A stretch of DNA of 33,143 bases. Source: Bacteroidales bacterium. Lineage in GTDB: Bacteria; Bacteroidota; Bacteroidia; Bacteroidales; UBA932. Below the pieces are notes generated by a model. It saw only the letters and a program-made list of their open reading frames with translations, searched no databases and was not told where the DNA came from. This document shows, in pieces, positions 888-33,143 of the stretch. Position numbers and translations under genes: made by a program. Within the stretch, counting starts at the first letter, position 1. The number at the start of each line of letters is the position of its first letter. Location: contig JAFUDV010000035.1 of assembly GCA_017464245.1 (NCBI GenBank), forward strand, positions 1 through 33,143, written 5' to 3'.

Positions 888-920
888 GCAGAGGCCTCTC
901 TCTTCACCCTTCCAACATAG

Positions 921-1030
921 CCCGGCCATGGAGCTCCGGACTGCTGCCAACGGAGCCCTGTACGCCTTCCTCTCCGGAGATCCGGATCCGCCCCTCCACC
1001 TCGCTCCTTCGGACTTCCCTGAGGGGCTCT
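921..1030. repeat. 110-base direct repeat, copy A
   Basis: Starts CCCGGCCATGGAGCTCCGG and ends CCCTGAGGGGCTCT. It is closely similar to 1174-1285, 253 bases further on. The differences include a 3-base insertion (an extra CTG) and a 1-base deletion in copy B, so the copies do not preserve one reading frame and are unlikely to be coding. Confidence 0.65.
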
Positions 1031-1173
1031 GAGGCCCTCCCGGAAGGGGCCCGGAGTGCCGGCTCCACAGGCCACATTTCAAGTCCTTCAGAGGCCGTTT
1101 TTCTTTTGGATCTGAACAGTCCCCGGCAACTCTTTGCCTTGTTCCTTTGAGCTCTCCTGTGGGCCTTTGATGG

Positions 1174-1285
1174 CCCGGCCATGGAACTCCGGACTGCTGC
1201 TGCCAACGGAGCCCTGTGCGCCTTCCTCTCCGGAGATCTGGGCTCTCCCTCCACCTTGCTCCTCCGGGCTCCCCTGAGGGGCTCT
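1174..1285. repeat. 110-base direct repeat, copy B
   Basis: Second copy of 921-1030. It has the extra CTG within GGACTGCTGCTGCCAACGG and diverges most in the middle (GATCTGGGCTCTCCC against GATCCGGATCCGCCC). The stretch between the copies (1031-1173) holds no gene that I recognise. Confidence 0.65.
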
Positions 1286-1361
1286 AATGACAAGGAAGAC
1301 GGGGCTTGATTCTTCGGGAGGAATTCACTACCTTTGCAAGAGCAATCCGACACTGTGGGGC

Positions 1362-30747: not shown

Positions 30748-32196
30748 CTAAAGGGCCAGCCGGAAACCGATGGTGCTCCGGAACAGGCTGGCGTGGAATT
30801 CGTTGCGGTTGCTTACCCGGCACTTGTCCCAGGTGGTGGCGGCGCTCCCGCCACGCATGACCCGGTAATCTCCGAGCGCTGAGGTGACCGGACCCTGCGG
30901 GTCCCGCTGATCCGTCGAATCGTACGGTCCCGGACGGTCCTGGACCCATTCCCAGGCGTTGCCGCTCATGTCATAAAGTCCCAGTTCGTTGGGCCGATGG
31001 AGAGCCACTTTGCGCGTACGCATGTCATCATAGCCATACTGGGCCACATCCTGCGGGAAAGAGGAGCCGGCAAAGGCATACCCGCGGCTCTTCTGTCCGC
31101 CCCGGGCGGCATATTCCCACTCCGCCTCCGTCGGAAGCCGGAACTTCCTTCCGGTCAGTGCATTGAGTTCACGGATAAAGGCCTGGACATCATACCAGGA
31201 GACATTGCCCACAGGATAGTCCGGCCCCTGGCTCCCATACGGGAGCGATCCCATGACCGCCTCCCAGAGCGCCTCCGTCACTTCCAGCCTGCCGATCTTG
31301 AAAGGATCCAGAGTCACCTGATGGAGCGGAAGTTCGTCTTCGCGGACCGTCCCTTTCTGCTCCGTACCGCCCATCGTGAAAGTGCCGCCTTCCACGGCGA
31401 CCATGTCAAACCGGACGCCTTTCACCTCGAGGGTCTCGGGCTTCACTTCGGTGGATTTGTACCGGGCGCGGTCCACCTGGTTCTCCACGAGGACGCCATA
31501 GACATCCTGCGGATACGGGGCATCCATGGAAACGGCGACGCGGAGGCCGACGTCGCCGGCCTTCGTAAAGGGCGCCATCGCCTTGCGGGTGATGGGTTTG
31601 TTATTCTTCTCGAGAGCGCTCCCGCCCCGGAGGGCACGGTCCTCCCCCGCTTCCGGACCCTGCGGGTTCACGGTGAGATGGATGCCCAAGTCGTCGGTCC
31701 AGCGGTCGGAGCACCATTCCCACACGCCCCCGGGCATGCCTTCCTGCAGGCGGGCAGCCCGCTCCCATTCCGCTTCGGTGGGAAGCCGGAACGGAACACC
31801 CGTCGCCTTGGAGAGCTTTTTCAGGAACTTCTGCGCATCATCGAAAGAAACCCCGCTCACAGGTGCCTGCGGAACGTCCTTGGGGCTGGGATTGCTGCCC
31901 ATGACGGCCTTCCAGAGCGCCTGTGTAACCTCCGCCGTGCCGATGGCAAACCCGTCCAGGATCACCTGATGGACCGCCGGCGTTCGATAGTGTCCCTGGT
32001 CCAGGGTCTCGCCCATCGCAAAAGTACCGGCAGGGATCGGGGAGAGGCGAAACGTCTCCCCGTTTACGGTGAAGGCAAAGAGCCCGTCGGCATCCTGCCA
32101 GGGCGTCAGGTCCGCCGGAGCGGATACTACAGCCCCGTTCCCGCCGCAGGAAACCACGGCGAAAAGGAGAAGGGCCCATGTAACGATCTTTTTCAT
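30748..32196 (-). CDS. Lipoprotein with two tandem SUMF1/FGE-like domains
   Basis: The 482-residue product has a lipobox (VVSC, Cys17) and two formylglycine-generating-enzyme-like (SUMF1) domains, at about 50-265 and 290-482. Both have the PAGTFAMG/EGGTFTMG beginning, EVTQALWKAVMGS/EVTEALWEAVMGS, FRLPTEAEWE and RALRGGS/RVMRGGS. The first domain is shortened around its middle. Neither carries the paired catalytic cysteines of true FGE near the end (the second has WDKCRVSNRNEF), so a binding role is likelier, as in the GldJ/GldK lipoproteins of Bacteroidota. The ATG at 32196 overlaps the stop of the arginase-fold gene (ATGA); the frame extends upstream but only as antisense-free read-through. 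Gcv genes follow. Confidence 0.8.
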   Translation of the reverse strand: MKKIVTWALLLFAVVSCGGNGAVVSAPADLTPWQDADGLFAFTVNGETFRLSPIPAGTFAMGETLDQGHYRTPAVHQVILDGFAIGTAEVTQALWKAVMGSNPSPKDVPQAPVSGVSFDDAQKFLKKLSKATGVPFRLPTEAEWERAARLQEGMPGGVWEWCSDRWTDDLGIHLTVNPQGPEAGEDRALRGGSALEKNNKPITRKAMAPFTKAGDVGLRVAVSMDAPYPQDVYGVLVENQVDRARYKSTEVKPETLEVKGVRFDMVAVEGGTFTMGGTEQKGTVREDELPLHQVTLDPFKIGRLEVTEALWEAVMGSLPYGSQGPDYPVGNVSWYDVQAFIRELNALTGRKFRLPTEAEWEYAARGGQKSRGYAFAGSSFPQDVAQYGYDDMRTRKVALHRPNELGLYDMSGNAWEWVQDRPGPYDSTDQRDPQGPVTSALGDYRVMRGGSAATTWDKCRVSNRNEFHASLFRSTIGFRLAL

Positions 32197-32924
32197 TTCT
32201 GCTTCCAATGGTCCAGGATCCGCTCCTGGAGCGTCCGGTTGGTTTGTCCGTTGATCCGGAGGTCCTCCGGCGTCGCTCCCTTGGCCGGGGACAGTTCCCC
32301 GCAAAGGTCCAGGGCGACGATATCCGTCTCTTCCAGGAGCCGGTCCAGCCAGCCTTCCAGCGTGGCGAGGGAATAGCTCCCCTGACTCCAGTCCGTCCGG
32401 GAATCCTCCCGTCGGAGGACATCCTTGTCCACCGACAGATACACCCGCTTTCCCTGAAGGGCGCCGACAAGGTCGTCGATTCCCTCCTTCAGTTCCGGGT
32501 CCACGCTTCCGGAGGTGTTCCGGATCCCGTGGTCCGGGCCCAGCGTCCATACGTCCTCCAGCAGCGGATTCTCCGCCCGCATCGCCCGCACCCAGCTGCC
32601 GCAGCTCAGGACACCTCCGAAGGCCGGTTCCTGATCGTCCGGGTGGTTGTCCACGAGGACGAGGGTGAAAGGCTCCCGCTCGAATCCGGCGAGGATCTTG
32701 GATACATAGTGGTAATCCCCGCTGTCGATCCAGCGCACGCCGCATCCGCTCCAGGGAGCAAGGCGGCGGCGGATTTCCACCTCCGCTTCCGGATCGCAGT
32801 AGCACGAGGTTCCCTCGATGTCGTCCATCCGGACCACATGGGCCGGTACCTTCCGTTCCTCCAGGAAAGGAAGGAGACCTTCCTCCGCGTACACCTGCGT
32901 AAAGTCTGCGACAAGTATCTCCGG
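32193..32924 (-). CDS. Arginase/ureohydrolase-fold protein, 3' exon (gene interrupted by a group II intron)
   Basis: The 243 codons from 32924 encode an arginase-type fold: GDYHYVS (in the place of motif 1), DNHPDDQE with the DxHxD metal ligands, YLSVDKDVL with the DxD pair, and LDLCGE. The metal ligands look complete, so it may hydrolyse a guanidino or similar compound; the substrate is not readable. The sequence begins PEILVADFTQVYAEE, the usual beginning of this subfamily. The start codon and first few residues are missing because the intron ends directly before 32924; the 5' exon lies outside the window. An ATG at 33032 gives an open frame through the intron, but those residues are intron RNA, not protein. 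Stop overlaps the next gene. Confidence 0.75.
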   Translation of the reverse strand, partial: PEILVADFTQVYAEEGLLPFLEERKVPAHVVRMDDIEGTSCYCDPEAEVEIRRRLAPWSGCGVRWIDSGDYHYVSKILAGFEREPFTLVLVDNHPDDQEPAFGGVLSCGSWVRAMRAENPLLEDVWTLGPDHGIRNTSGSVDPELKEGIDDLVGALQGKRVYLSVDKDVLRREDSRTDWSQGSYSLATLEGWLDRLLEETDIVALDLCGELSPAKGATPEDLRINGQTNRTLQERILDHWKQK

Positions 32925-32965
32925 GTTGAGTAAGTGGCGGGGAGTTTCACCCCGCCCTTCTCTCG

Positions 32966-32999
32966 GAACCGTGCTTGACAGTCTCCCATCACACGGCTC
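32966..32999 (-). ncRNA. Group II intron domain V
   Basis: 34 bases long, as is normal. GAGCCGTG pairs with CACGGTTC, and an inner stem GATGG/CTGTC (with wobble pairs) is closed by GAGA. This is the catalytic hairpin that defines the element. Confidence 0.85.
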
Positions 33000-33047
33000 T
33001 TCATACTTAACTTTGTTAAGGTTGTTGTTCATTTCTTTCTTCTATCT

Positions 33048-33143
33048 TTACCTACGGACTTGATACGGGATATACCCCAATTCCCAGTGGGAGAATAATG
33101 CTCTGTTATTATAGGCTATGTCCGCAAGTTTCGCATCCGAACG
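33048..33143 (-). CDS. Group II intron reverse transcriptase/maturase, C-terminal end (partial)
   Basis: The last 31 codons before the TAA at 33050-33048 read RSDAKLADIAYNNRALFSHWELGYIP and end YQVRR. This kind of tail follows the maturase domain in bacterial intron-encoded proteins. The rest lies outside the window. The stop codon is 48 bases upstream of the domain V start on the RNA, a normal position for an ORF in domain IV. Confidence 0.6.
   Translation of the reverse strand, partial: RSDAKLADIAYNNRALFSHWELGYIPYQVRR

Follow-up and report, generated by a model that had tools for sequence, protein, structure and literature searches.

A group II intron lineage that probably homes to sigma-A promoters of Bacteroidota, recognized at the edge of a Bacteroidales contig

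What is the end of a group II intron doing directly before an arginase-like gene, at the very edge of a bacterial contig? The window, that is, the whole stretch of 33,143 nucleotides analysed here, is one entire contig (C16) of a draft genome in 97 contigs (G000, the source genome). The sequence-only reading of this DNA had placed a group II intron inside the 5' end of the gene, and our analysis supports that reading with a correction: the intron is one of at least six copies, and its position follows a promoter-box rule. The interpretation that we favor, with a probability of roughly 0.78, is that the window ends in one copy of an endonuclease-less, RmInt1-like mobile intron, the lineage of which homes to Bacteroidota sigma-A promoters.

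All features at the right end of the window lie on the minus strand. The 3' part of the intron, identified by an Rfam match and by its repeats in the genome, occupies 32925..33143 and is cut by the contig edge at 33143. It opens with the last 31 codons and the stop codon of the intron-encoded protein (IEP), a reverse transcriptase-maturase (33048..33143; the translation ends in NNRALFSHWELGYIPYQVRR), assigned by its similarity to the end of the IEP of another intron, that of G653 (63% identity over 24 residues). The full RF00029 model, which covers domains V-VI, matches at 33001-32925 with 57 bits vs a gathering score of 40 (E 7.7e-9; the short stretch alone gives E 2.4e-10), and this is the sole Rfam match in the window above the gathering score. 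In the cmscan alignment, domain V is the 34-base hairpin that had been called from the letters (32966..32999), and domain VI, which agrees with the model, extends together with the intron end ..CTTACTCAAC over 32925..32965. The boundary at 32925 is fixed to within one base because six copies in the source genome have ..CTTACTCAAC followed by C in common and differ right afterwards; the match and this point of divergence bear out the claim that domains V-VI and the intron end lie directly before the arginase-like gene.

After 32925, a phase-0 frame of 243 codons opens (PEILVADFTQ..), which, with its stop codon, fills 32193..32924; we read it as the 3' exon, namely, the gene from codon 3 onward, based on this frame, the homologues, the empty site and Pfam searches with the homologues. 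The putative arginase fold, which had been proposed for the product from sequence, is based on sequence matches of homologues: PF00491 (Arginase) is the best match in ten of ten scanned homologues, none of which reaches the curated cut-off (best E 0.0012), and the window protein itself has no Pfam match and no NCBIfam match. The predicted spurious reading frame, in contrast, exists, a mechanical ORF of 279 codons that starts at an intron-internal ATG at 33032 and continues into the gene (32193..33032), and is probably a false gene model with an intron-encoded N-terminus. Read-through translation finds no support as a conserved function, though it may occur in the source genome: in seven of the nine other introns inspected, stops interrupt phase 0 within domains V-VI, and the two introns in which it is open (in G693 and in G231, the latter another genome of the same genus as the source) have no ATG after the last stop within the stretch read. 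Because the frame is closed in those seven, the open frame through domains V-VI in the window looks like an annotation trap and not like a conserved function; gene callers give wrong N-termini beside such introns, the window gene included. Elsewhere in the window (904-1353), where there is no obvious gene, the minus-strand translations contain the repeated peptides EPLRGARRSKVEG and EPLREVRRSEVEG, hinting at a short DNA repeat.

The place at which the intron splits the gene can be read from relatives that lack it. A homologue of the window protein is encoded in 81 of the 151 genomes of the genus sample, the source genome included, and the five closest homologues (67-70% identity) are intron-free. 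These five read TATCTTTG or TATATTTG, containing a TAnnTTTG box, then four bases, then ATGAAA (M-K), with CCG, CCG, CTG, CCG and GCG as the next codon; the window exon starts with CCG. Among the 29 homologues examined, the box stands exactly four bases before a start codon in 19 and is absent there in ten. Homologues starting at residues unique to the window had been named as the sign that the intron is merely next to the gene; the homologues do not start there, and the five closest begin with ATGAAA. Given that these five begin with ATGAAA and that all six intron 5' ends in the source genome follow ATGAAA, the most likely position of the intron is between codons 2 and 3, which leaves the start codon to the 5' exon (MK/PEILVADF), so that the placement within the first codons of the gene holds up. 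The 5' flank of the window copy itself, beyond the contig edge, is expected to carry the ATGAAA codons. Sequence matches do not single out any of the six 5'-end contigs as the partner of the window: genes of the five intron-free relatives match the downstream genes of the window but, at E 1e-8, no gene on the 5' contigs or on the remaining 3' contigs compared, and the sole match of a 5'-contig ORF to the flanks in the relatives links C91 to L103 at 30% identity.

The source genome contains six intron 3' ends and six 5' ends, the latter found with the 5' part of a related Segatella copri plasmid intron (L031) as the query, and all twelve lie at contig edges; contig C29 has an intron 3' end at its left and an intron 5' end at its right. 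The five other 3' ends are 99% identical to that of the window over 138-142 bases, and the copy number of the intron in this genome is at least six. RVT_1 had no match anywhere in the bin, where no full-length copy was found either; both the edge positions and the missing RVT_1 are to be expected of a multi-copy repeat that collapsed in assembly. Four of the six 3' exons stay open in phase 0 from the junction, those of the window gene and of genes for a PD-(D/E)XK nuclease, a dihydropteroate synthase-type pterin-binding enzyme and a protein of the GlcNAc 2-epimerase family. Two copies count against our explanation: in C95, only 24 codons are open after the junction, and in C29, a frame of 160 codons that matches DUF4279 starts at an ATG five bases in, out of frame with the junction. 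On the 5' side, all six flanks consist of TAnnTTTG, two to five bases (four in four of the six) and ATGAAA, followed by the intron start GTGTGTCACGAGAAGAACTC, and all six 5' ends begin with GTGTG, in agreement with the group II pattern GUGYG. In 138.7 kb of this genome (the window plus the contigs that surround the introns), there are 102 instances of ATGAAA, and the six instances with the box two to five bases before them are the six intron sites; the box with any ATG two to five bases on occurs 13 times. The first base of the 3' exon is C in all six of these copies and in all five G691 copies and varies in G231, which might reflect an EBS3-IBS3 contact of genome-specific strength.

The association with the box extends across the lineage. 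TAnnTTTG ends 8-11 nt upstream of the intron in 23 of 23 5' junctions from nine genomes or records (six in G000, six in G231, four in G695, two in G694, and one each in G691, G692, G693, a plasmid and MT836638.1), at a spacing of 8 nt in four junctions, 9 in seven, 10 in eight and 11 in four, whereas in the upstream DNA from 20 nt on, the motif occurs at 1 in 3031 positions, so that 0.03 junctions would be expected to have it. These junctions were gathered with intron queries, from 20 of the 30 matches in the main search (the ten unused ones, with E 0.13-0.88 over 16-32 bases, were taken as chance) and from a follow-up 5' search in which two of seven matches were new; the main query included four exon bases before the intron and the queries that yielded the other three junctions included none. 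Two of the G695 junctions have 21 bases before the intron in common and may not be independent. The last exon bases vary by genome, being ATGAAA six times in G000, A-rich in G231 and with TC in G695. Among distant introns with placed 5' ends, none of six has TAnnTTTG at 8-11 nt, and two have it at 38 and 44 nt; these comparators come from six genomes besides the source genome, and with the 5' end in G337 unplaceable, the set of six is made up of five plus G653.

Published descriptions of the Bacteroidota sigma-A promoter, in passages of PMC7366714 and PMC9723704, give TAnnTTTG at -7 (-12 to -5) and TTTG near -33. Judged by the motif match in 23 of 23 junctions, the box before the introns is probably the sigma-A -7 box, and the rule of position relative to it is very strong. 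With the box at -12 to -5, as placed in PMC9723704, the A of ATG behind a four-base gap would be at +1, and the mRNA would be leaderless. According to passages of the same two papers, leaderless mRNAs are rare in the mapped Bacteroidota, amounting to 5.5% in F. psychrophilum (PMC9723704), and 5' UTRs under 10 nt make up 3.7% in B. thetaiotaomicron (PMC7366714).

When the species genomes were scanned for an exact pattern of the domain V-VI signature, six of them proved to contain it, in 17 stretches altogether, namely, six in a reindeer MAG, five in Prevotella RGIG4792, two each in Xylanibacter SIG140 and Alistipes equi, and one each in Segatella copri Indica and a Muribaculaceae MAG. With later finds included, 27 3' junctions were collected, 21 of them outside the source genome. 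At 16 of these 21, an ATG ORF of at least 80 codons starts 7-25 nt downstream (within a 30-nt span), compared to 2761 of 20,800 positions picked at random from these stretches (13.3%); at two others, the ORFs are shorter, with 70 and 72 codons, and start 22 and 18 nt downstream, and three flanks, which count against our explanation, have no nearby start codon. Judging from these ORFs, the intron type in related genomes mostly sits in 5' leaders, not in codons. Shrunken copies also stand at promoters: L072 (Segatella copri Indica) and L031 (the Segatella plasmid) have large internal deletions and keep domains V-VI, and L063 (Segatella copri Indica) is reduced to about 70 bases from the box side to ..CTTACTCAAC and lacks the domain V pattern. 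Viral contigs yielded no pattern matches and no confirmed relative of the intron. A 16-base Segatella 5'-end pattern was discarded as chance, with four matches in G000 and seven in G231, all at three mismatches, vs seven and 11 for the reversed control.

The complete member of the lineage is found in MT836638.1, a human faecal contig, where the intron spans 1941 nt from GTGTGTCC to CTCGAC, behind the 5' flank TACCTTTGCAGCGGTAT, and encodes an intact protein of 420 aa. This IEP matches TIGR04416 with 425 bits as well as RVT_1 and GIIM in Pfam, where no endonuclease domain was detected at E <= 0.1. Aligned over 409 residues with a 419-aa ltrA protein of S. meliloti, which we regard as RmInt1-type, it shows 54% identity. 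The ORF that starts 14 nt after the 3' end of the intron seems to encode an AMP-forming ligase. The record is labelled bacteriophage, yet it holds a bacterial-type intron and this ligase-like gene; it is probably a chromosomal contig, and a survey of group II introns in phages does not mention it in its main text (PMC12350094).

The element that would guide the intron to the box, EBS2, can be read in just two members of the promoter lineage, the two with domain I, MT836638.1 and G692, both of which match RF01999 (the D1-D4 core). Both have a putative EBS2, GCAAA, after CATCGTTA near nt 240, complementary to TTTGC at exon -13..-9, which in both is part of the promoter box. At the same aligned place, the G653 intron has GGGTT, complementary to its own AACCC at exon -13..-9, and the S. 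meliloti intron, in our reading of its sequence, has GCGTA vs TATGC, with one G-T pair. The candidate words occur once more each near nt 103-113 (GCAAA near nt 112, in a conserved motif), and folding of the short EBS2 region gave no hairpin common to MT836638.1, G692 and G653, so that the putative assignment rests on position and complementarity. EBS1 fits at six of seven positions, with G-U pairs, in MT836638.1 and G692, and worse in G653. For RmInt1, IBS2 has been described as the bases -13 to -9, required for homing and not for excision (a passage of PMC3123198). In the promoter lineage, IBS2 should be the box itself and should be absent from the RNA because the box lies before the start site.

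The scheme that we propose builds on what can be seen in the sequences, that is, the box, its spacing, the boundaries, the empty site and the EBS2 complementarity in two relatives. In the DNA target, EBS2 (GCAAA) would recognize exon positions -13 to -9, which are TTTGC within the -7 box, and EBS1 would pair with the next seven bases, whereupon the ribonucleoprotein would reverse-splice into the sense strand about 4-7 nt behind the transcription start; a 5' exon of 4-7 nt follows from a box at -12 to -5 and a spacing of 8-11. In the source genome, genes with the box directly before ATGAAA would be the targets, and the intron would come to lie between the start codon and the rest of the gene. 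Transcripts made from the host gene's own promoter would begin just ahead of the intron, and the mRNA would have to be restored by splicing in which the 5' exon measures about six nt (AUGAAA). The box would thus direct insertion, yet would not be part of the RNA. The homing route, the start sites, the splicing and the EBS elements of the source genome's own copies are our deductions. Endonuclease-less introns of this kind favor single strands, which makes the open complex of RNA polymerase a plausible entry point. Tentatively, and at odds clearly below even, we suggest that the melted non-template strand of this complex is the single-stranded target and its -7 box is read by EBS2; active promoters whose start region fits would then serve as homing sites, and the guide element would be left out of the RNA to be spliced.

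Could the copies in the source genome instead be dead relics that do not splice, the split genes being silent or using another start, such as the intron-internal ATG (33032)? That ATG shares the reading frame of the window gene, the bin yielded no reverse transcriptase, and the Segatella copies have lost large internal parts. We nevertheless consider this unlikely, although it is the most credible of the alternatives: the six 3' ends show 99% identity, which fits a recent spread, the genes behind the intron, including the dihydropteroate synthase-type enzyme and others, have long intact frames, the read-through frame is closed in most relatives, and the missing interior is what a collapsed repeat in a draft assembly would produce. 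Survivorship, that is, wide insertion with only the copies at the 5' edge of transcription units tolerated, ranks below the relic explanation and appears improbable to us. Leaders are tolerant, and the intron is in 5' leaders in most genomes of the lineage, but tolerance would not fix the 8-11 nt distance to the -7 box at every junction; moreover, the sites in the source genome, right behind the start codon, are the least tolerant place, and EBS2 matches the box in both readable members.

Far less probable still is that the box belongs to the mobile unit or arises at insertion, in which case the intron would bring its own promoter. A box before every 5' end collected is what this explanation predicts, but the intron-free homologues of the window gene have the box as well, and both the bases before it and those between box and intron vary by site, as does the spacing. 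Least probable of all is a chimeric assembly, in which an intron end was wrongly joined to the gene: all twelve intron ends in the source genome are at contig edges, but short reads yield edges at repeats, the same arrangement is present in the plasmid NZ_CP085933.1, described as complete, and in the unbroken contig MT836638.1, and the exon starts exactly where the homologues continue after ATGAAA.

The reading that we prefer, homing to the -7 box, would carry several implications. Specialist papers have dealt with introns located at start or stop codons. Among the open PMC papers searched, no report of promoter-directed group II introns was found. The text of a 2015 review distinguishes three target specificities of bacterial group II introns, namely, homing sites, terminators and attC sites (PMC4424553); a lineage keyed to a promoter box would, if real, be a fourth. 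It would also show how spread to many genes is possible for an intron with hardly any 5' exon, and how a DNA guide sequence can be missing from the RNA that must be spliced, and it would make several genes of the source genome, including that of the dihydropteroate synthase-type enzyme, dependent on splicing for their start codon. A cloned member might serve as a tool for insertion behind Bacteroidota promoters.

Among known introns, that of G653, from the same order, is the nearest of intact length that we read outside the lineage. It resembles the lineage in its 5' end (GTGTGTCACGAG), in the place of EBS2 and in its IEP, 57% identical to the partial IEP of G692, and differs in the EBS2 word GGGTT, in the site AACCC with no promoter box at 8-11 nt, and in its location within what we read as a transposase-like gene. 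RmInt1 of Sinorhizobium meliloti (class D/IIB3) appears similar in its IEP, given the 54% identity of the 420-aa protein to the 419-aa one that we regard as RmInt1-type and the lack of an endonuclease match, and in the position of IBS2, -13 to -9 in both (PMC3123198). Unlike the promoter lineage, which sits behind promoters, RmInt1 is described in passages of PMC8914252 as having the insertion sequence ISRm2011-2 for its natural target, with bound DNA regions that lean to the 3' ends of genes. On the S. meliloti plasmid pMl3 (L159), tandem 419-aa ltrA genes with identical protein sequences occur at 1121 and 2982; the second intron starts right behind the end of the first, which is itself inserted in another reverse-transcriptase gene. 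With class C introns, as portrayed in the text of PMC4424553, the lineage shares the lack of an endonuclease and insertion that follows a transcription signal and not one gene. However, the class C signal is an intrinsic terminator or attC, whereas that of the lineage appears to be the promoter -7 box, and its IEP and EBS2 layout resemble those of RmInt1.
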